From positions 1 through 58,167 of the forward strand of contig JAGANQ010000063.1 of the NCBI GenBank assembly GCA_017624115.1: a stretch of DNA of 58,167 nt, in the 5' to 3' direction. Origin of the DNA: Lachnospiraceae bacterium. Lineage in GTDB: Bacteria > Bacillota > Clostridia > Lachnospirales > Lachnospiraceae. This document shows, piece by piece, positions 7,936 through 56,250 of this stretch (position 1 is the first letter of the stretch; every line of letters begins with the position of its first letter). The notes under the pieces were generated by a model. It was not told the origin of the DNA and made no database searches. It saw only the letters and a list, made by a program, of their open reading frames with translations. Both the position numbers and the translations under genes were made by a program.

Positions 7936-9243
7936 ATGTCATACGATTATTTTGCAGATAAGCCTGTATACGAAGTACATACATTGCAGGGACCTGCAGC
8001 ACTCTCTGTCTGCGTACCCGGCTCCAAAAGCATCACCAACCGTGCACTGCTGCTTGCGGCACTGGCAAATGGTACCAGTACATTGAGCGGTGCTCTCTTC
8101 TCTGATGATTCCAGGCATTTTCTTGCCTGTCTGAAACAGCTTGGTTTTCCGGTTGAGATTGACGAGGAAAAGCGTACCATGACTGTTACCGGCTTTGGAG
8201 GACAGATTCCTAAAAAGGAAGCCAGCATCTATGTCGGCAGTGCCGGAACTGCAGCCCGCTTTCTTACCGCTATGCTGGGGCTTTCTGACGGCATCTACCA
8301 TCTGGATGCCTCCGAGCAGATGAAGAAGCGTCCGATGAAGCCTCTCTTGGATTCTCTGACTTCGATTGGAGTCGAGGTAATCTACGAGGAAAAGGAAGGC
8401 TTCTTTCCTTTTACGCTGAAGGGATCTGCCCACACAAGGAATACCATTGAAGTAAATATCGGAAGCAGCAGCCAGTTTTTGAGCGCACTTCTTATGTCTG
8501 CACCGATGAAGCCGGAAGGTCTCACTATTTCTCTTGTCGGTGAAAAGCATGCCCTCTCCTATGTAGCTATCACGACCAGGATGATGGAGCAGTTTGGCTG
8601 CACGGTAGAGGTTCCCGCTGAAGGTCAGTATATTGTGCCTGCCGCTTCCTCTTACCAGCCGCAGAGTTATCAGATTGAACCGGACGTATCGGCAGCCTGT
8701 TATTTCTATGCTATGGCACCTCTGGTTGGCGGAACAGTGCAGGTAAAGCACGTGCACAAGACCTCCATGCAGGGAGATATCCGTTTTCTGAGCATTCTGG
8801 AAGCTTTCGGCTGCAGGGTCACAGAGGAACCGGAGGGCATCTGTATAAGCTGCACTTCTCCGCGTTCTTATCCCGGAATAGAGGTTGATTTGTCCGACTG
8901 CTCCGACCAGACCATGACACTGGCAGCGCTGGCTCCTTTTGCGTCATCCCCGGTCACGATACGGAATATCTCACATATCCGTCTGCAGGAAAGCAACCGC
9001 ATCCAGGCAATCATCACCGAGCTCACCAGACTGGACATACATTGTCTTGAGCTGGAGGACGGCATCTATATAGAGCCTGGCATACCGAAGGCTGCGGCTA
9101 TTGAGACGTATGATGACCACCGGATTGCCATGGCATTTGCCCTTATCGGTCTTGTCATACCGGGGATACAGATTAACAATCCGTCATGCTGTAAGAAAAC
9201 CTTTGAAGAATATTTTCAAATGCTGGATGAGATTACCAAATAA
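7936..9243 (+). CDS. aroA: 3-phosphoshikimate 1-carboxyvinyltransferase (EPSP synthase)
   Basis: EPSP synthase joins shikimate-3-phosphate and phosphoenolpyruvate, the sixth step of the shikimate pathway. The substrate-binding segment GSKSITNRALLLAAL is near residue 30, and the C-terminal DDHRIAMAFAL carries conserved catalytic residues. The PEP-site loop reads GSAGTAARFLTAM rather than class I GNAGTAMRP or class II GNSGTTIR, and RLQESNR replaces the common RxxESDR. The enzyme is therefore a divergent class. Length (435 residues) is normal. It shares an operon with tyrA and ends in a strong terminator. Confidence 0.94.
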   Translation: MSYDYFADKPVYEVHTLQGPAALSVCVPGSKSITNRALLLAALANGTSTLSGALFSDDSRHFLACLKQLGFPVEIDEEKRTMTVTGFGGQIPKKEASIYVGSAGTAARFLTAMLGLSDGIYHLDASEQMKKRPMKPLLDSLTSIGVEVIYEEKEGFFPFTLKGSAHTRNTIEVNIGSSSQFLSALLMSAPMKPEGLTISLVGEKHALSYVAITTRMMEQFGCTVEVPAEGQYIVPAASSYQPQSYQIEPDVSAACYFYAMAPLVGGTVQVKHVHKTSMQGDIRFLSILEAFGCRVTEEPEGICISCTSPRSYPGIEVDLSDCSDQTMTLAALAPFASSPVTIRNISHIRLQESNRIQAIITELTRLDIHCLELEDGIYIEPGIPKAAAIETYDDHRIAMAFALIGLVIPGIQINNPSCCKKTFEEYFQMLDEITK

Positions 9244-9272
9244 AGGGCTGGCGCATTCTGCGCCAGCCCTTT
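9242..9272 (+). terminator. terminator of tyrA-aroA
   Basis: AAAGGGCTGGCGCA pairs perfectly with TGCGCCAGCCCTTT around a 3-nt loop. With A and T runs on both sides it could act in both directions between the convergent aroA and nspC genes. Confidence 0.9.
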
Positions 9273-9284
9273 ATTGACAGTTTT

Positions 9285-9340
9285 TGTCGATTTCTTTGTT
9301 CTTTCTCTTATTATTCGACAAAAACTTTTTATTTGTCGAA
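9285..9340. promoter_or_regulatory. cluster of Spo0A-box-like motifs
   Basis: TGTCGAT at 9285-9291, TTCGACA at 9314-9320 and TGTCGAA at 9334-9340 match the 0A-box core (TGTCGAA or its complement) at 6/7, 7/7 and 7/7. The last two form a 9-bp inverted repeat. They lie between convergent gene ends, not at a promoter, so binding is speculative. Confidence 0.3.
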
Positions 9341-9353
9341 AAGTTATCCCGCT

Positions 9354-10565
9354 CTAACCTTTTCCCAGTCTGATTTTGAAATCATCATAGCCGAAATCCG
9401 TCAGCCGCACAAGCTCTCCGCTCGCGCTTCTTTTCCATATGTCGGGCAGAGGCATTCCGTTGAAGGTATTATTTTTGCAGGTTGAATAAATTGCCATATC
9501 ACCGAACAGAAGCAGGCTGCCCTCCTGTAATTCCCGGTCAAAGCTGTAATCACCGATAATATCGCCGGCAAGACAGGTAGGTCCTGCCAGACGGCAGGAA
9601 TATTTCCGTTTATCCCCTTCCTCTGCATCATATAAAGGCGGTGTATATGGCATTTCTATCACATCGGGCATATGGCAGGCTGCACTTGTATCAAGTATCG
9701 CGATGCGGATATCTCCGTTTTGTATAATATCAAGCACACGGCATACAAGATAGCCTGCATTCAATGCACAGGCTTCTCCCGGCTCCAGATAAACCTCCAC
9801 ATTCCATTTTCTCCGTGCCGTAAGAATGCACTGTTCCAATTTTGAAAGGTCATATCCCGGGCGGGTGATATGATGTCCGCCGCCCATATTAAGCCACTTC
9901 ATTTTCGGAAGAATATCTCCGAATTTTTTATCCACCGCCTGAAGCGTCACTTCAAGCGCATCGGAATCCTGCTCACACAATGTATGAAAATGCAGGCCGT
10001 CAAGCAGGCAAATCAGCTCTTGCGTCATTTCCTTATCCCACTGCCGTCTCGTTGTACCAAGCCGGCTTCCGGCTGCACACGGATCATATATCTCATGTCC
10101 CTCCTGTGTAGAACACTCCGGGTTGATACGCAGACCGATGCTCTTACCTGCCTGCTTTGCTTTGAAACCAAACGTTCCAAGCTGATGCGGGGAATTAAAT
10201 ACAATATGGTCGGCATAGCTTAAAAGCTCATCAAATTCATCCTCACGATATGCCGCACAGAAAACGTGAACCTCTTTTCCCGGCATTTCCTCTGCCCCCA
10301 GTCTTGCCTCATACAGACCGCTTGCCTCTGTTCCTGCAAGATACGGGGCAAGCACAGGATACAGGTCGTAATTAGAAAACGCCTTTTGTGCAAGCAAAAT
10401 CTTACAGCCTGTATTCTTCATAACCGATGCAAGGATACTGCCGTTTTTATGAAGCTGCCCTTCATCTATGACATAGCAGGGAGTTGGCAGGGCAGAAAAC
10501 AATTCCTCTGGTTTTTTCCCGTCAAGCGCCCAGAACGCAGGACGGGATTCTATCCTGCCCTCCAT
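9354..10565 (-). CDS. nspC: carboxynorspermidine decarboxylase
   Basis: This PLP-dependent fold III decarboxylase removes the carboxyl group from carboxy(nor)spermidine to give spermidine or norspermidine. The PLP lysine lies in ILLAQKAFSN near residue 60. Other family motifs are GLRINPECSTQEG, LHFHTLCEQ, LNMGGGHHITRPGYD and YLEPGEACALNAGY; CHMPDVIEMPY carries the C-terminal active-site region. Length (403 residues) is slightly above the usual ~380. Its start overlaps the stop of the dehydrogenase gene by one base (TGATG), so the two are translationally coupled. Norspermidine versus spermidine as product cannot be told from sequence. Confidence 0.93.
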   Translation of the reverse strand: MEGRIESRPAFWALDGKKPEELFSALPTPCYVIDEGQLHKNGSILASVMKNTGCKILLAQKAFSNYDLYPVLAPYLAGTEASGLYEARLGAEEMPGKEVHVFCAAYREDEFDELLSYADHIVFNSPHQLGTFGFKAKQAGKSIGLRINPECSTQEGHEIYDPCAAGSRLGTTRRQWDKEMTQELICLLDGLHFHTLCEQDSDALEVTLQAVDKKFGDILPKMKWLNMGGGHHITRPGYDLSKLEQCILTARRKWNVEVYLEPGEACALNAGYLVCRVLDIIQNGDIRIAILDTSAACHMPDVIEMPYTPPLYDAEEGDKRKYSCRLAGPTCLAGDIIGDYSFDRELQEGSLLLFGDMAIYSTCKNNTFNGMPLPDIWKRSASGELVRLTDFGYDDFKIRLGKG

Positions 10566-15084: not shown

Positions 15085-15463
15085 AAAAAACGCAAGCTGT
15101 AATTACACAGCTTGCGTTACTATCCTATCACCTTATTATGATTATCTCCAAAGATGGATAAATCCTACCGTACCACCAAAAAACAGTTTATCCAGGAGCA
15201 AATATCAGAGAGGATATGCGGGCGTAAACAGAGTCTATATAGCAACAATACTTTTACTACTCTTTATTGACCGTTTCACAAGTCTGCGTAAATACGCATT
15301 TCGGTTATAAAGTAACCAACTTATAAAATTTGAGCTTTTAACTCAATCAATAAGGCGGCAAACCGCCAATCGGCAGTGGACCCGGCTGTCCGTATGGCCT
15401 CAACTCCAGCGGAGTGGTCCGTAATAATCGCTTTGGATAGACTCTACGTCGAAATACAATCCA
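15085..15463 (-). ncRNA. structured non-coding RNA or long 5' leader upstream of the polyamine operon
   Basis: A perfect promoter (15470-15498) and a strong hairpin plus T6 terminator (15085-15118, ACGCAAGCTGTG...ACAGCTTGCGT) bound a ~375-nt transcript with no credible reading frame. The 5' third folds well. GGACC and GGTCC enclose the hairpin ACTCC-GCT-GGAGT and a GGC/GCC stem, followed by a GGCGG-TTTG-CCGCC hairpin. The 3' part has GGTGGTACGG, AGGATTTATCC and GGTGATAGGATAG. I could not match it to tmRNA (no ANA...TAA tag frame or CCACCA end), RNase P, 6S, SRP or a known riboswitch. It may be an independent ncRNA (raiA-type RNAs are worth testing) or an attenuated leader of speA. Confidence 0.65.
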
Positions 15464-15705: not shown

Positions 15706-17514
15706 TTAACCTAACAGAGACAGAACACCCTGGTTAGCCTGATTTGCCTGAGCCAGCATAGACTGTCCGGCCTGTGCAAGAATGTTGTTCTTGGAGTATG
15801 TAACCATCTCCTTAGCCATATCCACATCACGAATACGGGACTCTGCTGCTGTTGTGTTCTCAACAACATTGTCAAGGTTTGCAATAGTGTGCTCCAGTCT
15901 GTTCTGGATAGCACCAAGAGCAGAACGCTGCTTGGAAACCTGTGCAATGGCGTCCGCAATGGTATTCACTGCCTTGTCAGCATTGGTGGAGTCCTCGCCT
16001 GTCACCGTTACCTTGTCAATGCCGAGGCTCTTTGCGCTCATAGACTCGATATCCACGGAAATCTTATTTTCCTCCGTAGTGTCAGCACCAACCTGAAGGC
16101 TGAAGTTCAGGACATCAGAAGCCTTATCGACAGATGCTTTCTCTGTGATGAGGAGCTGCACCTTGATATCACTGAAATTAACTTCCGTATCCGCTGTATC
16201 AGTAGTATGTTTTGCACCTTTCATACTATCATTCAGGTCTGCATCTGCTATATCCTTAAGCGCTTTACTGAGATCCTTAACCGTAGTTGTAAACTCTTCC
16301 TTAACCGCATCTCCAACCTTATTATTGCTAGCGTCATATTTCTGGCTCACCTTGGTCGCACTAATCTGAATATCCAGCTTGTAATCATCGCCAATCAACT
16401 TCTGCAGCTGGTCAAAGGTCTTGAAGGTATTGGCTTCATCTCCGGTCGTCTTGTTAGCATCATAGGTATAGGTCTTACCGTTGATGGTTACTGATTCGCC
16501 ATCCTTCATGTTCAGCGTAAAGGCATTTGCCGCAGGTGCGGTACCGGCCACAGTATCATTTGCTTTTCCGATTTCCAAGGCATAGGATTCTCCTGTGGCA
16601 ATGGTACGAAGCGCCGCATAATCAGCATCCGTAGCTGTTGTTTGCTCAATACCCTCAAATTTATTCAGTCTCTTAGCAGTTCCTGAGGCAACCTTCGATG
16701 CAGATTCAAAAGTAATTTTCTGTACTGCATTCCTTGTACTATCCGTCTTAGTGCCATCCAGCTTTGACTCCACGCTAATCTTGCCGGAATCGTCGGAAGA
16801 TGCCTTAAAGACATGTTTCAATGTATCATCCTTATTAATAGCCTCCGCCAAATTTGCCGCAGTTGACTTTGCATCTGCACCGGTTTTGAAGGTCACGTCC
16901 TTCGTTCTGGTATTTCCTTCTTCGTCCAGATACTCGATGGTAGCGGTATCCTCAGTTCCCGCATCCAGCTTGGTGCCATCTGCCATGTCAAGAGTACCGC
17001 TGAAGATGTTGCCCTTTGCTGCCGTAGTAACTGCATCCTGAATCTTGCCGTCAACACGTGCGCTTACCTCGTCAGCATTCTTGTTCTTTCCTGAACCCTT
17101 TAACAGATAGGTCTCGTTGAACTTAGTAGTCTCGGATACACGGTCAATCTCTGTTACCAACTGGTCAATCTCATCCTGAATAGCCTGACGGTCTGCTTCT
17201 GAATTCGTACCGTTGGATGCCTGTACTGCCAGCTCGTTCATACGCTGAAGCATGGAATGTACTTCATTCAATGCACCTTCTGCGGTCTGTACTGCAGAGA
17301 TACCATCCTGTGCGTTGGAGGAAGCCCTCTCCAGACCACGCATCTGCTTTCTCATCTTCTCAGAAATTGTCAAGCCTGCTGCATCATCTGCTGCACGGTT
17401 AATTCTGTAACCGGAAGATAACTTCTCTGTGGACTTTGCCTGCTGCCCCGTTGTGATGCCTAACATTCTGTTAGCATTCATTGCCTGTATGTTGTGTTGT
17501 ACTATCATTGCCAT
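15706..17514 (-). CDS. hag: flagellin
   Basis: This 602-residue flagellin is the filament subunit. Conserved N-terminal D0/D1 (NIQAMNANRMLGI, GYRINRAADDAAGLTISEKM, LQRMNELAVQASNGTN) and C-terminal D1/D0 (LGAIQNRLEHTI, ILAQAGQSMLAQANQ) regions surround a long, variable central domain of ~330 residues rich in Thr, Asp and Lys. The N-terminal D1 stretch corresponds to the TLR5-contact region of other flagellins. There is no signal peptide, as expected for type III export. AAGGAGG precedes the ATG and overlaps a CsrA-like site. No promoter was found in the 119 nt between csrA and hag, so the two are probably cotranscribed. Confidence 0.96.
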   Translation of the reverse strand: MAMIVQHNIQAMNANRMLGITTGQQAKSTEKLSSGYRINRAADDAAGLTISEKMRKQMRGLERASSNAQDGISAVQTAEGALNEVHSMLQRMNELAVQASNGTNSEADRQAIQDEIDQLVTEIDRVSETTKFNETYLLKGSGKNKNADEVSARVDGKIQDAVTTAAKGNIFSGTLDMADGTKLDAGTEDTATIEYLDEEGNTRTKDVTFKTGADAKSTAANLAEAINKDDTLKHVFKASSDDSGKISVESKLDGTKTDSTRNAVQKITFESASKVASGTAKRLNKFEGIEQTTATDADYAALRTIATGESYALEIGKANDTVAGTAPAANAFTLNMKDGESVTINGKTYTYDANKTTGDEANTFKTFDQLQKLIGDDYKLDIQISATKVSQKYDASNNKVGDAVKEEFTTTVKDLSKALKDIADADLNDSMKGAKHTTDTADTEVNFSDIKVQLLITEKASVDKASDVLNFSLQVGADTTEENKISVDIESMSAKSLGIDKVTVTGEDSTNADKAVNTIADAIAQVSKQRSALGAIQNRLEHTIANLDNVVENTTAAESRIRDVDMAKEMVTYSKNNILAQAGQSMLAQANQANQGVLSLLG

Positions 17515-17522
17515 AATATTTT

Positions 17523-17560
17523 TCCTCCTTGTTTTTAAAAATTCTGCAAATCCGTTTGCA
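17523..17560 (-). promoter_or_regulatory. two CsrA-binding sites in the hag leader
   Basis: On the minus strand GCAAA-CGGA-TTTGC (17546-17559) is a 5-bp hairpin exposing GGA in a tetraloop, the classic CsrA target. ACAAGGA at 17526-17532 matches the CsrA core consensus and contains the hag Shine-Dalgarno. The pair matches the known two-site arrangement in the Bacillus subtilis hag leader. A larger GC-rich hairpin lies further upstream at about 17581-17610. Confidence 0.7.
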
Positions 17561-17633
17561 TCATTATGGTTTTTATAATAAGCCGAACCCCTAGGTTAGC
17601 TCGGCATTATTACCGTGGTTGACAGCTGACTGT

Positions 17634-17909
17634 TTACTGCTCCTTCGCTGCCTTCTCTCTCTTCTGCTTCGCTATGATGCGCTTCATATCCTCCGCAGAC
17701 ATAGACGGCTCCGGATAATACTTCTTAAGCTTTTCCTTATCCTTCTCAGAGATGGCATTCTTCTCAAGCACCTTGCCTCTGACAATGTTATAGCTTCTCG
17801 GTGCATCCACCATGACCTTATAGTTGTTGGCTGTACCGCCAAGAAATACGACCTTGATGTCATCGCCTATCGTGAAATACTCACCCGGCTTGATTGTAAA
17901 ATTCAGCAT
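17634..17909 (-). CDS. csrA: CsrA-family translational regulator, divergent and extended
   Basis: CsrA binds GGA motifs in mRNA leaders and blocks translation; its main target in Firmicutes is hag. The 91-residue product has GEYFTIGDDIKVVFLGG and APRSYNIVRGKVLEKN, the CsrA beta-strand core including the critical Arg of the VxR motif. The N-terminal LxRKxGE is replaced by MLNFTIKPGE, so the usual basic residues there are missing. About 35 extra charged residues (YYPEPSMSAEDMKRI...) follow the core. The ATG at 17909 follows GGGAGG by 8 nt. It lies directly upstream of hag. FliW, its usual protein antagonist, is not in the window. Confidence 0.85.
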   Translation of the reverse strand: MLNFTIKPGEYFTIGDDIKVVFLGGTANNYKVMVDAPRSYNIVRGKVLEKNAISEKDKEKLKKYYPEPSMSAEDMKRIIAKQKREKAAKEQ

Positions 17910-17963
17910 CTGCAAAACCTCCCTGTTATATGATTTTCACCTGTCCCTGTGACCTGTGTTGTT

Positions 17964-17992
17964 TTGACAGGATGTAACATTCTTTATAAAAT
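17964..17992 (+). promoter_or_regulatory. sigma-A promoter of the recombinase, spanning the left inverted repeat
   Basis: TTGACA (17964-17969) lies outside the left repeat. TAAAAT (17987-17992) lies inside it, with a 17-nt spacer. DNA inversion would therefore separate the recombinase gene from its -35 box. Confidence 0.75.
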
Positions 17993-17997
17993 GTTAC
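17974..17997 (+). repeat. left recombination site (IRL) of the candidate inverton
   Basis: GTAACATT, the 8-nt spacer CTTTATAA, then AATGTTAC. All 24 nt are identical to the reverse complement of 19715-19738. Two arms around an asymmetric 8-nt core is a typical tyrosine-recombinase crossover site. The arms extend to 10 bp here. Confidence 0.8.
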
Positions 17998-18062
17998 ATT
18001 TATGCTATGCCCATGCTTATCATGTACGGGCATTAGTCTTATATTTCAAGGAGGGTATTATC

Positions 18063-18641
18063 ATGGGAACAACACAGCCAATCAAAAGCATCAAGGAATT
18101 AGATGCCTTAAAAGACTACTATCTGACACAAAAACCGAATCTCAGAAACTATGCACTTATCTGCACAGGAGTTAATACTGCGCTTCGTATCGGTGATATT
18201 CTTGGATTGACGTGGGAGGATGTCTATAATTTCAATACAAACTCCTTCCGCGAGCACATCATCATTCGTGAGAAAAAGACCGGAAAAGAAAACATCATTG
18301 CTACAAATAAAAATATGGTTCAGGGTCTCAGACTCTACATGGACAGTCTGCCTGCTGTCATGCCTTCGCATTTTATCTTTTCGGGGAGACAGGCGGAGCT
18401 GCCTATCTCCCGCATTCAGGCATTCCGCATCATAAAGGAAGCCGGAACACAATTAGAGCTTTCCAGCAATATAAGCTGTCATTCACTCAGAAAAACCTTT
18501 GGATATCATGCCTGGATATCAGGTGTAAGTCCCGCAATACTTATGATTATCTATAATCACTCCTCATTTCAGGTAACAAAACGATATCTCGGTATCGACC
18601 AGGAGGATAAAGACAGAGTTTTTCTTAATCTGAATTTGTAA
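18063..18641 (+). CDS. compact tyrosine recombinase (FimB/FimE-like invertase)
   Basis: This 192-residue protein is essentially only the catalytic domain of a tyrosine recombinase, the size of FimB/FimE and other DNA invertases; it lacks the N-terminal arm-binding domain of phage integrases. Catalytic residues are R42 (TALRIGDILGL), a Lys near K72/K75 (REKKTGKEN), H140 and R143 (CHSLRKTFGYH), H166 (YNHSS) and nucleophile Y175 (TKRYLGI). The ATG at 18063 follows GGAGG. A consensus promoter spans the left inverted repeat and a terminator follows. Its place between inverted repeats beside csrA-hag suggests that it inverts its own segment. No phage genes are nearby. Confidence 0.9.
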   Translation: MGTTQPIKSIKELDALKDYYLTQKPNLRNYALICTGVNTALRIGDILGLTWEDVYNFNTNSFREHIIIREKKTGKENIIATNKNMVQGLRLYMDSLPAVMPSHFIFSGRQAELPISRIQAFRIIKEAGTQLELSSNISCHSLRKTFGYHAWISGVSPAILMIIYNHSSFQVTKRYLGIDQEDKDRVFLNLNL

Positions 18642-18665
18642 AATAAGCTATACACTCACATTGTT

Positions 18666-18700
18666 AAAGCAGGTTTCAGACCGTACAATGGGCCTGCTTT
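18666..18700 (+). terminator. terminator of the recombinase gene
   Basis: AAAGCAGG and CCTGCTTT form an 8-bp stem followed by TTATTGTT, 25 nt after the recombinase stop. The rest of the 270-nt gap to 18910 shows only a short GACCG/CGGTC hairpin. Confidence 0.75.
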
Positions 18701-18910
18701 TATTGTTCCCATTGTCCGTTCGATGCAGATTTCGCTTGTTCTAAATCCAAAATTATGCTATGATAAATGCAAGTCTTTCTGACTTATAAGCTTCGGCTTT
18801 TCACGACCGTTTCGGTCACATTTCCTATGTACAGACATAACAGAGGTGGTGCCTATGGACTAAGAACCAGTTTTACATGTATGGAATACAAATTTCGAAA
18901 GGAGCATTGA

Positions 18911-19584
18911 ATGGAGCAGAAAATACACCAGATTTACGACAAGGTTTTTAAGAAGATATTAACGCTGTCGTCCAAATCCGTCATCAATCTCATTAACGGA
19001 CTATTTGAGACAGACTACCCTCCCGACAGCACCATCCGGTATAACTGGACTGAATTCGAGGATGACGGTCTGAAGAAAACTCTGGCAGATACGATTCTCA
19101 CTATTAATTTATCCTCATTCCCTTTGAGCTGATGAAGCTTAGGGATGCCATAAAAAAGAAACGGAGCCCGGAAAATCTGGAAGCATTGAAAAACCTCATC
19201 GAAAATGATATACTTGGAAGTATCCATACGAATATGGAGCTTGGTAATATAACGCTGTCAGACGCGCAGAAGCTGAAACGTCTGACCCACCAGCTGTATA
19301 AGCATATCTACGCGCATTTCGAGGAGATGGAGGTGCTCAATGAGATGACGGATGAATCGTTGATACTGGATATTGATATTCTTGAGAAAAAGCATGAGGA
19401 AGAAATAGCAAATATTGTGGCAAAAAAGGATAAAGAATTACTAAACGCCATCGCTGACAAAGACAAGAAGCTGAATGAGAAAGACAAGGAACTGAATGAA
19501 CAATCAAAAGAATTGGATGAAAAATCAAGGGAAATAGCACTTCTTAAGAAAAAACTGGCGGAAGCAGGGATTCCTCTGAATTAA
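18911..19584 (+). pseudogene. decayed Rpn/PD-(D/E)XK-like nuclease gene with internal deletion
   Basis: The first frame (18911-19132) starts well (GAAAGGAG site) with MEQKIHQIYDKVFKKILTLS and KTLADTILTI. It resembles the N-terminus of Rpn/YhgA-like or Lachnospiraceae PD-(D/E)XK 'transposase-family' nucleases, then runs out of frame. A second frame reads on from about 19110 to 19584 (MKLRDAIKKKRSPEN...) and ends in a Lys/Glu coiled coil with repeats of DKELNE type, as at the C-terminus of those proteins. The central catalytic region is missing. This is best read as one gene after a large internal deletion with frameshift. It is cargo within the invertible segment. Confidence 0.7.
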
Positions 19585-19668
19585 GATACCCAAGCTGACA
19601 GAAATGGATTATATTTACTTTGGAAATTCAGGAAAATGAATGTTTTTAAAAAATTTTTAATTTTGCTA

Positions 19669-19695
19669 TAAAGTAATTTCCAAACTCTCCGATAT
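19669..19695 (+). promoter_or_regulatory. sigma-28 (sigma-D) flagellar promoter at the inner right edge of the inverton
   Basis: TAAA (19669-19672), 15 nt, then TCCGATAT (19688-19695) matches the Firmicutes sigma-D consensus TAAA-N14-16-GCCGATAT at all but one position. No gene follows on the plus strand. It reads out through the right repeat toward the 3' end of the oppositely oriented pilZ gene. After inversion it would drive csrA-hag. Confidence 0.7.
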
Positions 19696-19706
19696 ACATA
19701 TCAAAG

Positions 19707-19746
19707 ACAGGGAAGTAACATTTTATAAAGAATGTTACTTCCCTGT
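19707..19746 (+). terminator. hairpin over IRR acting as terminator in the present orientation
   Basis: A perfect 16-bp stem (ACAGGGAAGTAACATT with its complement) and 8-nt loop is followed by a T-rich tail. It lies 12-50 nt after the sigma-28 -10 box. It would stop that promoter's transcript in the present orientation; the T-rich tail is outside the inverting segment. Confidence 0.6.
19715..19738 (-). repeat. right recombination site (IRR) of the candidate inverton
   Basis: GTAACATT, the spacer TTATAAAG, then AATGTTAC: the exact reverse complement of the left site. The arms here extend to 16 bp because outer flanks ACAGGGAA and TTCCCTGT also pair. Confidence 0.8.
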
Positions 19747-19817
19747 TTATTATTACTTTTATCATACAGATTATACAAAATTACAGCTCTTGTGCGAGTG
19801 CTCATCCCTGCGGAGCG

Positions 19818-19866
19818 TTTTTAATATCATAGGGAAGTTCAAAGAACTTTCCTATGATATTAAAAA
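19818..19866. repeat. 49-bp near-perfect palindrome
   Basis: Arms of 23 nt (TTTTTAATATCATAGG... and ...CCTATGATATTAAAAA) differ at one position and flank an AAA loop. It abuts the pilZ terminator. Function is unknown; it may be a REP/MITE-like element or a second bidirectional terminator. Confidence 0.65.
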
Positions 19867-19891
19867 CGGCTGCTGCATCACTGCAACAGCC
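19867..19891 (-). terminator. terminator of the pheS-pheT-queA-pilZ group
   Basis: On the minus strand GGCTGTTGCA pairs with TGCAGCAGCC over a 4-nt loop, followed by GTTTTTAAT, just after the pilZ stop at 19901. Confidence 0.8.
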
Positions 19892-19900
19892 TCTGCTTTA

Positions 19901-20242
19901 CTATTTATTCTGTTCTTCACCCGGATAGTTAAACAGCTCATATACCTCTATCTTGAACTGGTCAGGTGCCGCCATTCCGACGAATTTCCCGCCATACACA
20001 TCCCCATCCTTGTGCAGAACCTGGATTACCGTATTGATTCTTTCCTTTGTCCATATTGTAATCTGGGTATCATAAAATCCTTTTATAGAAAGCTCTTCCA
20101 AACACTTAAATGCCATACCGCCCCGGGAAATATTCATAACCTCTACTTCATAGGACCTTCCGGCAGTTCCGTCGCCCTCAATCGCCCTCAGGCTGATTTT
20201 TACGTCAATATCCATTCGTTTGGAACGTCTTTTTTCTTCCAT
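19901..20242 (-). CDS. PilZ domain protein (c-di-GMP receptor)
   Basis: This 113-residue single-domain PilZ protein has the c-di-GMP-binding motifs RRSKR (R5 and R9, the RxxxR switch) and N37-I-S39-R-G-G42, the (D/N)xSxxG motif. PilZ proteins bind cyclic di-GMP and control motility, adhesion or exopolysaccharide in the cytoplasm. It lies about 95 nt downstream of queA on the same strand and ends in its own terminator. Its closeness to csrA-hag makes a motility role plausible, but that is inference. Confidence 0.88.
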   Translation of the reverse strand: MEEKRRSKRMDIDVKISLRAIEGDGTAGRSYEVEVMNISRGGMAFKCLEELSIKGFYDTQITIWTKERINTVIQVLHKDGDVYGGKFVGMAAPDQFKIEVYELFNYPGEEQNK

Positions 20243-20337
20243 GTAGCACCCCCTGCTTTTATCTGATTTGTTTCCAAAAACTAACTTCTTTCGATTATAG
20301 CATAAAAAAACAGAGTAATCAACATGGCATCATTAAT

Positions 20338-21384
20338 TTATTTCGCAGCTGAACTGTTGTCTATAATTAACATCGCATCACCAAAAGAAAAGAATCTATA
20401 TTGTTCCTTTACTGCTTCCTCGTATGCCGCCAGTATATGCTCACGCCCTGCCAATGCTGACACCAGCATAAGCAGTGTGGATTCCGGCAGATGAAAATTC
20501 GTAATCAATGCATCCAGCACCTTAAAGTGATAACCCGGATAGATAAAAATTTCTGTCCAGCCGGAACACTCCTTTACAAAGCCATTCTCATCTGCAGCAC
20601 TTTCCAGTGTACGACAGCTTGTCGTTCCTACGCAGATGACACGTCCGCCGTTTTTCTTTGCCTGATTAATTTTATCTGCCTCAGACTGCTCAATGCGGTA
20701 AAATTCGGAATGCATATGATGCTCTGTGATATTCTCCACCTTCACCGGTCGGAATGTGCCAAGACCTACATGAAGCGTCACAGTCGCGATACTGACACCC
20801 ATCTGTTCAATTTGCTCCAGAAGCTCCTTTGTAAAATGAAGTCCCGCTGTCGGCGCCGCCGCTGAGCCCTCATACTTTGCATACACTGTCTGGTAGCGGT
20901 TCTTATCCTGCAGCGGATGTGTAATGTAGGGCGGAAGAGGCATCTGTCCCAGCCTGTCCAACACCTCCTCAAAGATACCCTCATAGGTAAACTGAATCAG
21001 GCGGTTTCCCTCTTCCACTACTTCCAGCACCTCGCCGACAAGCAGCCCGTCACCAAAGGAAATTTTGGTACCAGGCTTTGCCTTCTTGCCAGGCTTTACA
21101 AGCGTTTCCCAAACATCATTCTCATGCCTCTTTAAGAGCAGTACTTCAATTCCCGCATTCGTGCCGACTTTATTTCCAAGGAGCCGTGCCGGGATAACTT
21201 TGGTGTTATTTAACACCAGACAGTCTCCCGGGCGCAGATATCCGACAATATCACGAAAGCCTTTATGTTCCGTCTTTCCTGTACTTTTATCCACGACCAT
21301 CAGCCTGGAGGACGCTCTGTCCTCCAGCGGGTCCTGTGCAATCAGCTCCTGTGGCAAATCATAATAAAAATCCTTTAATTCCAT
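20338..21384 (-). CDS. queA: S-adenosylmethionine:tRNA ribosyltransferase-isomerase
   Basis: QueA transfers and isomerises the ribosyl group of SAM onto 7-aminomethyl-7-deazaguanine in tRNA to make epoxyqueuosine. The N-terminal [18 protein letters not shown], the central [13 protein letters not shown] and the C-terminal [18 protein letters not shown] are conserved family motifs. Length is 348 residues, as expected. AAAGG lies upstream of the ATG, and the gene starts about 50 nt after pheT. No tgt or other queuosine genes are adjacent. Confidence 0.96.
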
Positions 21385-21432
21385 AACATAACTATACCTT
21401 TCCCACAGCCTGCAAGCCCCAAGCCGGGCATA

Positions 21433-23853
21433 CTAGGCTCTTAATTCAACGCCAAGCTCACCCAGAGCCTTCAGAATCTTATTCATGGCTTCTGTCACAT
21501 CCTTGTCCTCCAGTGTACGGTCAGGTGCACGGAAGGTAATCGAATAAGCTACTGATTTGCAGCCTTCCTTAATCTGATTTCCTTCATAAATATCGAACAG
21601 CGAATAGCTTTCCAGAATCTTTCCAGCCTTCTTCTCGATGATATCCTCAATCTGTCCTACCAGAATCGTCTTCGGCATGACCATACTGATATCACGGGTA
21701 ACAGAAGGATACTTGGCAATTCCGCTGTATTTTCTGTCGAAGGTAGTATATGGAAGAATTTCCGGCATATCAAGGACTGCAATATAAGCACGTTCACCGA
21801 TATCATAGTTATCTCTTACCTGTGGATGAACCTCACCCAGATATCCTAATACCTTACCCTTATATTCGATTGCTGCCTGTCTTCCCGGATGCAGGAATTC
21901 CTTGCCGGCTGCCGGATTGTAGAATACCTTTTCACGGATTCCCACCTTCTCCAGGAACTCTTCTACGACACCCTTCATCGTGAAGAAGTCTCCTTCTCCG
22001 TACATACCAAGTGTAAACTGCATCCTCTCCTCCGGCAGCTCCGTAAGCGGAACCTGCTTCGGCAGATAGATATTGCCCAGCTCGTACAGACGTACATTCT
22101 TATTTCTTCTATTATAGTTTGTTGCCAGCGAGGTAAGCATACCATTTAAAGAAATGGTTCTCATAATGCTGAAATCCTCTCCCAGCGGATTGGAAATTAC
22201 AACCGTCTTTCGCAGCGGTGAATCTGCCGAAAGCATCAGCTTGTCAAATACCTTCGGACTTTCAAAGGAATAGGTCATGCCCTGACTGAAACCACAGAAT
22301 TCAGCGATTTCTCTTGCCACTGCTTCAATTCTCAGCTTATAGGACAGTTTTCCTGTTGTTGCCTCACCGGTTGGCAGACTGGTCGGAATATTGTCATAGC
22401 CGTAGAATCTTGCCACTTCCTCCGCTAAATCTGCCAGACGCTCCAAATCCTGGCGGAAGGTCGGCGCAACCACTTCCTTCTTCTCTGCGTCATAGGAAAG
22501 CTCCAGTTTTTTGAAAATATCCAGCATATCAGCCTCAGGAATTTCTGTTCCCAGAAGCTTATTTATCTTCGCTGCATCAAATGGCACACGCTTTGACTGT
22601 CTTACCTCCGGGTAAATATCAATCATACCGCCGACAACCTCACCTGCACCCAGCTCCTCGATTAACTGGCAGGCTCTGTCAATTGCCTCACTGGCATTGT
22701 TCGGATCCAGTCCCTTCTCAAATTTACCTGAGGCATCCGTTCTTAATCCCAGCTTCTTTGCAGACAGACGGATATTTGTTCCATCAAAGCATGCTGCCTC
22801 GAACATCATCGTCTTCACATCATCCGTAATCTTGGAATTTTCACCGCCCATAATTCCGGCGATACCGACTGCCTTTTCACCGTCGTTAATCATCAGTATA
22901 GAAGAATCCAGCTTACGCATCTGACCGTCCAGTGTCTGGAATTCCTCCCCGGCAGCCGCACGCTTTACGATAATTTTCTTACCGGCAATCGTATCTAAAT
23001 CAAAGGCATGCATCGGCTGTCCGTACTCCTCCATAACATAGTTCGTAATGTCGACGATGTTATTGATTGGGCGAATACCACAAGCCGCCAGCCTTCTCTG
23101 CATCCATTCCGGTGAAGGTGCAAGCTTTATATTTTTAACCACTCTTGCACAGTATCTTGGACACAAATCGGTATCCTTGACCTCTACTGACACATAATCA
23201 TTGACATCCTCATTATTTCCCGTTTTCTTCACAACAGGCGGATGGAATTCCTTCTTAAATGTCATAGCTGCCTCTCTGGCAATACCGATGACACTGTAGC
23301 AGTCCACACGGTTAGAGGTAATTTCATATTCCACATTTACATCATGCAGCCCGAGTGCCTCTACCGCATCACTTCCCACCTCCGTGTTCTCCGGAAGAAT
23401 ATAGATTCCGCTTTCCGGTGCGTCCGGGTACATCTCCCTGCTGGAGCCAAGCTCTTCGATAGAGCACATCATACCGAAGGACTCAACACCTCTCAGCTTA
23501 CCTTTTTTAATCTTGATTCCGTCCTCCGGAAGCGGCCCGCCGTCATGTCCGCCTGCCACACGTCCGCCATCCAGCACAACAGGAACCTTCTGTCCCTCTT
23601 TCACATTTGGCGCACCAGTAACAATCTGAATGACCTCATTTCCTACATTGACCTGACAGACAACCAGCTTATCCGCATCAGGATGACGCTCGATTTTCTC
23701 AATCTGTCCTACTACAATCTTCTCCAGATTTTTATCAAGGCAGACATATCCCTCTACCTTGGTTCCGGATAATGTCATGGCATCCGTGTATTCCTGGGCT
23801 GTCACATCAAGATCCGGTACATATGCTTTAATCCATGATAATGGTGTATTCAT
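21433..23853 (-). CDS. pheT: phenylalanyl-tRNA synthetase beta subunit
   Basis: PheT is the large subunit of the (alpha-beta)2 PheRS that charges tRNA-Phe and edits Tyr. The N-terminal MNTPLSWIKAYVPDLDVTAQEY precedes an EMAP/tRNA-binding domain at about residues 40-150 (HPDADKLVVCQVNVG). B3/B4 editing and B5 domains occupy the middle. The C-terminal FDX-ACB anticodon-binding domain (YPSVTRDISMVMP) ends the protein. Length 806 is normal. It follows pheS by 46 nt and is under the same T-box. Confidence 0.97.
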   Translation of the reverse strand: MNTPLSWIKAYVPDLDVTAQEYTDAMTLSGTKVEGYVCLDKNLEKIVVGQIEKIERHPDADKLVVCQVNVGNEVIQIVTGAPNVKEGQKVPVVLDGGRVAGGHDGGPLPEDGIKIKKGKLRGVESFGMMCSIEELGSSREMYPDAPESGIYILPENTEVGSDAVEALGLHDVNVEYEITSNRVDCYSVIGIAREAAMTFKKEFHPPVVKKTGNNEDVNDYVSVEVKDTDLCPRYCARVVKNIKLAPSPEWMQRRLAACGIRPINNIVDITNYVMEEYGQPMHAFDLDTIAGKKIIVKRAAAGEEFQTLDGQMRKLDSSILMINDGEKAVGIAGIMGGENSKITDDVKTMMFEAACFDGTNIRLSAKKLGLRTDASGKFEKGLDPNNASEAIDRACQLIEELGAGEVVGGMIDIYPEVRQSKRVPFDAAKINKLLGTEIPEADMLDIFKKLELSYDAEKKEVVAPTFRQDLERLADLAEEVARFYGYDNIPTSLPTGEATTGKLSYKLRIEAVAREIAEFCGFSQGMTYSFESPKVFDKLMLSADSPLRKTVVISNPLGEDFSIMRTISLNGMLTSLATNYNRRNKNVRLYELGNIYLPKQVPLTELPEERMQFTLGMYGEGDFFTMKGVVEEFLEKVGIREKVFYNPAAGKEFLHPGRQAAIEYKGKVLGYLGEVHPQVRDNYDIGERAYIAVLDMPEILPYTTFDRKYSGIAKYPSVTRDISMVMPKTILVGQIEDIIEKKAGKILESYSLFDIYEGNQIKEGCKSVAYSITFRAPDRTLEDKDVTEAMNKILKALGELGVELRA

Positions 23854-24960: not shown

Positions 24961-25208
24961 AAAAACCTCCGTCCCAATAGGGACGGAGGTCAAATTTCCG
25001 CGGTACCACCCTGATTCCTGCAATGGCAGGCACTCAAGCAGGCGTAACGTGCCTCTTACGTCATTCCTTACCAGACAAGTCCTTCGGGAATGCAGCTCCG
25101 GTGGGAAATTCAATATTTATCTGAACCCGGGATTGCTTTCAGCCGCTGACATTCCCTCTCTGCTGGAAAATAAATATCTACTGACACCTTCTATGCTTTT
25201 AGCATCTG
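24961..25208 (-). promoter_or_regulatory. T-box riboswitch (predicted Phe) upstream of pheS
   Basis: The minus-strand leader contains the invariant T-box AGGGTGGTACCGCGG at 24998-25012, which pairs with the acceptor end of uncharged tRNA. It ends in the terminator ACCTCCGTCC...GGACGGAGGT plus T6 (24961-24990). A stem I with a likely TTC (Phe) specifier in TTGAATTTCCC lies further upstream. Low charged tRNA-Phe should allow read-through into pheS-pheT. The Phe specifier is inferred from context. Confidence 0.92.
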
Positions 25209-56029: not shown

Positions 56030-56202
56030 CACAGACTCCGGTCAGAGCGTTTGGACAGTGCTTCAGTTATATCAGCTTTGTGTTGCAGTTGCCCGCTGTT
56101 TTTCTGATATATCACACGCCTGAAGCCGCATGGGAGAGCACCCGCCGAATCCTTCGATAATCTCTCCACCTCGTTAACCCTCCTTGCAAGGGTGCATGGC
56201 GC
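56030..56202 (-). ncRNA. glmS ribozyme-riboswitch
   Basis: The minus strand contains AAGCGCC with the cleavage site before the G at 56202. The conserved core follows: GGGTTAACGAGGTGGAGAG, TTATCGAAGG, TTCGGCGGGTGCTCTCCC. The P3 arms GCTTCAG and CTGAAGC are also present. Glucosamine-6-phosphate triggers self-cleavage and message decay, giving feedback on glmS. The 3' boundary is approximate. Confidence 0.93.
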
Positions 56203-56250
56203 TTTGTTTACCTCTGTTAAATTTAAAACAAAAATCCTCCTTTCCGGATT

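Follow-up and report, generated by a model that had tools for sequence, protein, structure and literature searches.

Among the closest described counterparts of the locus reported here are two flagellar switches that operate by DNA inversion, one in Salmonella and one in Clostridioides difficile. The locus lies in a 58,167 bp stretch of DNA, here called the window, from a Lachnospiraceae bacterium (GenBank assembly GCA_017624115.1, contig JAGANQ010000063.1, positions 1 to 58,167, forward strand). In it, a predicted invertible element that carries a tyrosine recombinase gene and a sigma-28-type promoter sequence adjoins csrA and the flagellin gene hag. Judged from its sequence, the segment at 17974–19738 is very probably flipped by its own recombinase, which would turn csrA-hag on, or off as in the assembled arrangement.

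Hin, the recombinase of the Salmonella switch, is a serine recombinase, and the role of FljA is translational. The available text of PMC9368917 describes the Hin switch of fljBA and repression by FljA at the fliC promoter. As in that system, so far as it is set out there, the predicted invertible segment in the window holds the gene for its recombinase together with a promoter for a flagellin operon, and the operon couples a flagellin with a regulator of another flagellin. Unlike Hin, the window has a tyrosine recombinase (PF00589), CsrA in place of FljA and a sigma-28-type promoter; the difference in recombinase class excludes it from the Hin switches. Two unrelated recombinase classes have reached a similar flagellin-plus-regulator layout.

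In the C. difficile Cdi4/RecV switch, according to the accessible portions of PMC5386303 and PMC7446863, the segment that inverts is a 154 bp leader between the promoter and flgB, the promoter lying outside it. RecV serves several switches, and its flagellar target is the early flagellar operon. These portions describe a tyrosine recombinase that inverts DNA upstream of flagellar genes in a member of the Clostridia, with termination contributing to the OFF state, and in these respects the window is similar. It differs in that promoter and recombinase gene are inside the element and the target is csrA and a flagellin gene, and it is not a RecV switch as defined in the available part of PMC5386303.

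A 2025 survey (PMC11892184) includes, in its main text, a Clostridia inverton group (139) and invertase group (35) with a nearby tyrosine recombinase and orientation shifts measured in culture. Flagella go unmentioned in that main text, and the likeness to the window is one of description. Neither Lachnospiraceae nor csrA is mentioned in the available text of a method paper on C. difficile inversions (PMC5903667). Motility genes of Eubacterium and Roseburia are surveyed in PMC3720852, which covers csrA and sigma-28 promoters; neither phase variation nor a recombinase was found in the text available. The original prediction, made from the window sequence alone, had supposed that a self-contained switch on csrA-hag was undescribed, and our literature search, which did not cover bioRxiv preprints or most subscription papers, found no account of an invertible promoter on csrA-flagellin in Lachnospiraceae.

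The predicted invertible element

The element lies between csrA-hag (minus strand, 15706–17909) and a gene for a PilZ-domain protein (19901–20242, minus strand). The principal features are as follows.

15706–17514, minus strand: hag, encoding a full flagellin of 602 aa and placed second in the predicted target operon (PF00669, 153.7 bits; PF00700, 99.4 bits)
17634–17909, minus strand: csrA, first gene of the predicted target operon (PF02599, 58.3 bits; cut-off 27)
17974–19738, no strand: predicted invertible element, 1765 bp, in the OFF arrangement, recognized from flanking exact repeats and a layout kept in 138 related elements
17974–17997, no strand: left recombination site, on the csrA side, an exact 24 nt inverted repeat
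18063–18641, plus strand: tyrosine recombinase, 192 aa, catalytic domain only (PF00589, 79.3 bits; cut-off 27.1)
19669–19695, plus strand: sigma-28-type promoter sequence TAAA-N15-TCCGATAT, a sequence match that faces out across the right site, away from csrA-hag
19705–19748, plus strand: 20-pair terminator-like hairpin with its centre at the right site, part inside and part outside the element
19715–19738, no strand: right recombination site, distal, the exact reverse complement of the left site

The repeats have the architecture GTAACATT-CTTTATAA-AATGTTAC, in which an asymmetric 8 nt core separates 8 nt arms, and when one mismatch is allowed they lengthen to 28 nt. In 200 dinucleotide-preserving shuffles of the 5 kb region 16500–21500, inverted repeats whose arms lie 100 nt or more apart reached no more than 15 nt (mean of the longest, 11.4), and a chance origin of the exact 24 nt repeats was rejected. 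In the genome that includes the window (76% complete), GTAACATT-N8-AATGTTAC is found only at the two ends of the element, and it occurs once among 298 other genomes of the family. As the repeats are inverted, an excising element was also rejected.

The sequence observation behind the original prediction is confirmed: the repeats are reverse complements with the arms and asymmetric core described, the recombinase gene between them encodes a protein of FimB/FimE size, the promoter sits at the inner right edge facing outwards, and no sigma-28-like sequence was found on the csrA-hag strand between the element and hag. The promoter sequence has one mismatch to the sigma-28 consensus. Its position after inversion, put at about 130 nt upstream of csrA, stands and can be refined: 134 nt (start of the −35) to 108 nt (end of the −10) upstream of the csrA ATG at 17909. 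With the promoter facing away from csrA-hag, the window was indeed captured in what would be the OFF state.

PF00589 is the sole Pfam match of the recombinase, which did not qualify as a serine recombinase. R42, K72, K75, H140, R143, H166 and Y175, among which are the catalytic residues, are present and invariant across 19 aligned rows. At about 200 aa, with a catalytic domain only and a predicted part in promoter inversion, the protein is like the FimB/FimE invertases; it is unlike them in scoring far below the cut-offs of the NCBIfam models PRK09870 and PRK09871 (25.8 and 31.2 bits against 221 and 222), and membership of that family was rejected.

A sigma-70-like promoter sequence, TTGACA-17-TAAAAT, matches at 11 of 12 positions across the left site (17964–17992, plus strand), with the −35 lying beyond the element. 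Once the segment is inverted, the corresponding place would hold only TAAACA, at 9 of 12. Expression of the recombinase might consequently depend on orientation, if this straddling sequence is a promoter; 11 sigma-70-like matches were found against 7.7 in shuffles, and conservation was not seen.

Related elements in other genomes

Relatives of the recombinase (E up to 1e-15) were found in 31 of 299 Lachnospiraceae genomes. Relatives of the window csrA (E up to 1e-6) were present in nine of 150 genomes, and all nine also have the recombinase. A scan of species genomes returned at least 595 stretches, at least 559 of them relatives, and the best 80 of these were used. With further whole-genome searches included, the final set comprised 201 recombinase loci, one for each identical 240-base stretch of recombinase DNA. 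Each locus was classified by an automatic rule that called for an inverted site pair, a sigma-28-like sequence 10–66 nt from a site and facing outwards, and csrA or a flagellin gene no more than 900 nt outside.

The rule identified 138 flagellin-linked elements, of which 135 are OFF, one is ON and two have flagellin genes on both sides. Among the other loci, 45 have no csrA or flagellin gene nearby, four have the promoter and no target, and 14 near csrA or a flagellin gene were left unassigned; inspection of the 14 by eye placed L417 as ON and L390 and L400 as OFF. Named carriers include Roseburia faecis M72, Butyribacter intestini, Lachnospiraceae bacterium GAM79, Eubacterium sp. 14-2, Velocimicrobium porci and Petralouisia muris.

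The design of these elements is conserved. The distance from the end of the −10 to the site is 19–25 bp in 107 of the 138 and 31–40 bp in a further 25. Recombinase and promoter run in the same direction in 126 of the 131 elements with an internal recombinase; in the remaining five (L129, L150, L302, L303 and L307) the recombinase is reversed, and the promoter still points away from csrA. The recombinase lies outside the site pair in seven of the 138 (L069, L096, L100, L102, L144, L153 and L165). In L069, L100, L102, L153 and L165 the invertible part is only about 180–215 bp, barely beyond the promoter.

The site pairs match exactly in 29 elements, with 1–2 mismatches in 77 and with 3–6 in 32. 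As many sites have a length of 25 nt, a fixed 24 nt site model fitted only 12 of the 66 csrA loci in an earlier set. Sites were therefore picked by their 6 nt arms alone with variable spacing, which found them in 50 of the 66. Spacing was identical at both sites in 48 of the 50 loci, and the mean edit distance between site centres was 1.2 for the two sites of one locus and 5.4 for sites of different loci, with 48 distinct left centres among the 50. Centres that match within a locus and differ between loci are as expected of working crossover sites.

More distant relatives of the recombinase, up to 49% identical, are encoded in 79 viral contigs (L220–L298), where they may flip phage genes. These, and the 45 of 201 loci with no csrA or flagellin target, are what could be expected if a mobile or decaying recombinase element had come by chance to lie upstream of csrA-hag with no regulatory role. 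We consider this very unlikely. Exchange between inverted sites would flip the segment, not excise it, and the 138 flagellin-adjoining elements share one promoter layout. On a tree of 142 recombinases, 14 changes account for the flagellin label, compared with 31.5 in shuffles, which indicates that the association of recombinase and flagellin is old.

In L149 (5919–6677) an invertible promoter lies between divergent flagellin genes of 492 and 491 aa, and L167 (4450–6724), whose site pair is weaker (20 of 25), has the same layout. L149 and L167 make up the two-sided cases, and from their sequences each would be a two-flagellin alternator in which one flagellin is driven in each orientation. Related recombinases with the same kind of inverted sites lie beside genes that, by eye, are polysaccharide-like in L055 (9124–9891) and L061 (8226–9130); no sigma-28-like promoter was found inside either.

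ON and OFF orientations

The first tally, of 56 csrA-adjacent elements, included 54 with promoters pointing away from csrA and none that was ON. A scan of these towards csrA gave two weak sigma-28-like matches, in L064 and L159, neither of them at a site. Both ON loci come from genomes added later, first G323 and then the genus of G085.

In L311, from genome G323, the promoter, site, csrA and hag all share one direction, and the locus is ON. L310, in the same genome, is OFF. Between L310 and L311, identity is 94.0% for the elements (over 1001 nt) and 89.3% for the csrA-hag parts (over 2074 nt). Their outer flanks correspond. In L311 the csrA-side flank adjoins the promoter-side site, whereas in L310 it adjoins the other site, and the reverse holds for a T-run flank, with a local score of 32 where 20 shuffles gave 20 at most. 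The simplest reading of the two sequences is that they differ by one inversion between the sites. Seven recombinases of this type are present in G323; of the six readable loci five are OFF and one is ON, and the seventh is cut by a contig end.

The second ON locus, L417 in G528, was recognized by eye, the rule having missed it; its csrA-side half-site is degenerate. Its congeners L415 and L401 are OFF; their csrA-hag regions are 87% and 83% identical to that of L417, and their elements 75% and 78% identical and in the opposite relative orientation. Comparison of relatives for the opposite orientation had been suggested as a check on the original prediction, and these two sets of loci support the prediction. 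L363, from a congener of G323, is also OFF and shares csrA-hag and downstream sequence with L311.

Several observations weigh against a working switch in the window. The far flanks of L363 and L311 do not match above shuffles (18 against 21), and that pair alone gives no clean inversion. The second orientation was not seen on other contigs of the genome that includes the window, and a genus mate (74% complete) gave no match to the element; neither the species nor the genus has supplied an inverted copy. There are two ON loci against 135 OFF by rule, and several of the 14 loci near csrA or a flagellin gene that the rule did not assign have no detected site pair. The rule also requires a promoter 10–66 nt from a site, and elements that lack the promoter go uncounted. 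Finally, the genome, at 76% complete, has no FliA above the cut-off (best 118 of 189.6 bits) and no FliW; both are present in the genus mate.

It is conceivable, though improbable, that this is a former switch which in most lineages, that of the window among them, has become fixed or almost fixed in the OFF state, with csrA-hag silent or transcribed from a different promoter and the promoter and repeats of the element as remnants. The OFF share of 135 of the 136 one-sided elements, the 3–6 mismatches in 32 of 138 site pairs, and the loci near csrA or a flagellin gene with no detected site pair or promoter would all fit such a loss. Against it, the window sites are exact and its recombinase intact, the promoter and its spacing are conserved, the locus-specific matching of site centres requires ongoing exchange or selection, and the recent paralogues L310 and L311 are in opposite orientations.

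A large family with opposite orientations among its members instead favours, from sequence, the self-contained csrA-hag ON/OFF switch originally predicted. The parts are present, their spacing is conserved in related elements and related loci are found in both orientations. In such a switch the recombinase would act on the repeats that flank its own gene. In the ON state, sigma-28 RNA polymerase would read across the left site into csrA and then hag. In the OFF state the same promoter would fire into the terminator-like hairpin at the right site, leaving csrA-hag silent and the right-hand neighbour shielded. Part of the population would thereby change its flagellin heritably and reversibly, OFF being the usual state.

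Assemblies report only the majority orientation. Possible reasons for the OFF bias are an equilibrium far towards OFF, the presence of several cassettes per genome with few ON, the growth conditions before sequencing, and lineages that have lost the ability to switch.

Lachnospiraceae are common gut bacteria, and in the literature available to us flagellins of the gut microbiota are studied as antibody targets in Crohn's disease and other conditions. As more than 130 related flagellin loci share this layout and nearly all are OFF, carriers likely vary a surface protein that is closely monitored by host immunity. If many flagellins sit behind usually-OFF flipping promoters, the flagellin shown to the host is a population variable invisible to gene counts. 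The layout also provides a testable rule, by which the flagellin is predicted from the orientation read, that applies to named commensals such as R. faecis.

Promoter and terminator-like hairpin

In related genomes, nine of 12 fixed flagellin genes are preceded by a sigma-28-like sequence no more than 450 nt away, two of the other three having offered less than 160 nt upstream to the scan. The second flagellin gene of the genome that includes the window (L318) is fixed and has such a sequence. When the 91 of 98 OFF elements with a flagellin gene in reach were scanned between element and hag, only two had a match, both weak. Thus, the fixed promoter is missing where an invertible one is present. 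In R. faecis M72 (L130, 5280–5406), three near-identical copies of a sequence ending in CCGATA, 51 nt apart, lie on the csrA strand beyond the end of the csrA match.

Folding of the window sequence gave the right-site hairpin a T-rich end as assembled that is absent after virtual inversion. In 54 of the 56 loci of the first tally, two with less than 30 nt of flank having been left out, folding placed a terminator-like hairpin downstream of the promoter in 35 as assembled and in five when virtually inverted. The right-site hairpin is predicted from these folds to insulate the right-hand neighbour in the OFF state.

The fixed promoter-to-site distance and the hairpin with its T-rich end as assembled could also be taken to mean that OFF is the working orientation, yielding a short sigma-28-dependent regulatory RNA that ends at the right-site hairpin, with control of csrA-hag secondary. 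We give this little credence: the predicted RNA would consist mostly of recombination site, the centre of which is variable (48 distinct left centres in 50 loci), the hairpin is more simply explained as an insulating terminator, and the switch-linked flagellin genes are without a promoter of their own.

csrA, hag and their leader sequences

The csrA start is the ATG at 17909, with GGGAGG upstream. Against the two NCBIfam csrA equivalogs, csrA scored 31.3 and 27.8 bits, below their cut-offs of 73 and 70.1. As far as its sequence goes, the product is a divergent paralogue of CsrA. Two hairpins lie downstream of csrA.

17545–17560, minus strand: GGA-loop hairpin TGCAAACGGATTTGCA, resembling a CsrA site, in the hag leader
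17582–17605, minus strand: terminator-like intercistronic hairpin between csrA and hag, with CCTAGG

In Bacillus subtilis, CsrA binds a hairpin in the hag leader. The available text of PMC3720852 records that CsrA of B. subtilis stops hag translation. Of the 91 switch-linked hag leaders, 59 have a GGA-loop hairpin, where shuffles gave a mean of 3.25 and at most 8; of the 12 fixed flagellin leaders, 11 have one, where shuffles gave a mean of 0.6 and at most 6. The shuffles preserved base composition and nothing else. With hairpins in both kinds of leader and the B. subtilis precedent, the CsrA of the cassette could limit its own flagellin, the fixed flagellins, or both. In the switch, co-switched CsrA would tune flagellin translation through the hairpin in the hag leader.

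As resident (fixed) flagellin leaders also carry the hairpin, a broader arrangement can be put forward tentatively, as one that we think somewhat less likely to hold than to fail. Here, up to seven csrA-flagellin cassettes per genome, each with its own flipping sigma-28 promoter that is OFF nearly all the time, would make up a wardrobe of flagellins, and CsrA from the cassette that is ON would repress translation of the resident flagellins, so that the filament would be exchanged and not supplemented. If true, the Hin-fljBA arrangement of Salmonella would have been reinvented by convergence, here by means of a tyrosine recombinase and an RNA-binding repressor.

The csrA-hag intergenic regions of the window (17575–17612, minus strand) and its relatives contain a conserved hairpin, GGTAATAA-stem-TAACCTAGGG-stem-TTATTATAA. 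Exact CCTAGG is present in 27 of 92 such intergenics, against 0.039 per kb across the loci. The leader and intercistronic hairpin had no Rfam match (E up to 1). Possibly, the intercistronic hairpin is an attenuator or processing site that balances csrA against hag.

Other features of the window

The part of the element between recombinase gene and promoter contains remnant open reading frames (ORFs).

18911–19584, plus strand: two short remnant ORFs of 73 and 150 aa, inside the element

Neither had a match in Pfam, NCBIfam or PHROGs (E up to 0.001). Over 261 nt, their DNA shares 71% identity with a second place in the genome that includes the window (G000:C81). The L060 element (8574–9707) contains a 378 aa ORF with a sub-threshold match to Transposase_31 (20.3 of 21 bits), and L076 was noted alongside these elements.

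Just outside the right end of the element, at 19816–19868, is a 25 nt inverted repeat with arms 96% complementary and a 3 nt loop. Three Rfam matches above threshold were found elsewhere in the window, all on the minus strand: an SpF59/ldcC RNA at 15370–15420 upstream of a decarboxylase-like gene, a T-box leader at 24976–25202 upstream of a pheS-like gene, and a glmS ribozyme at 56058–56214.

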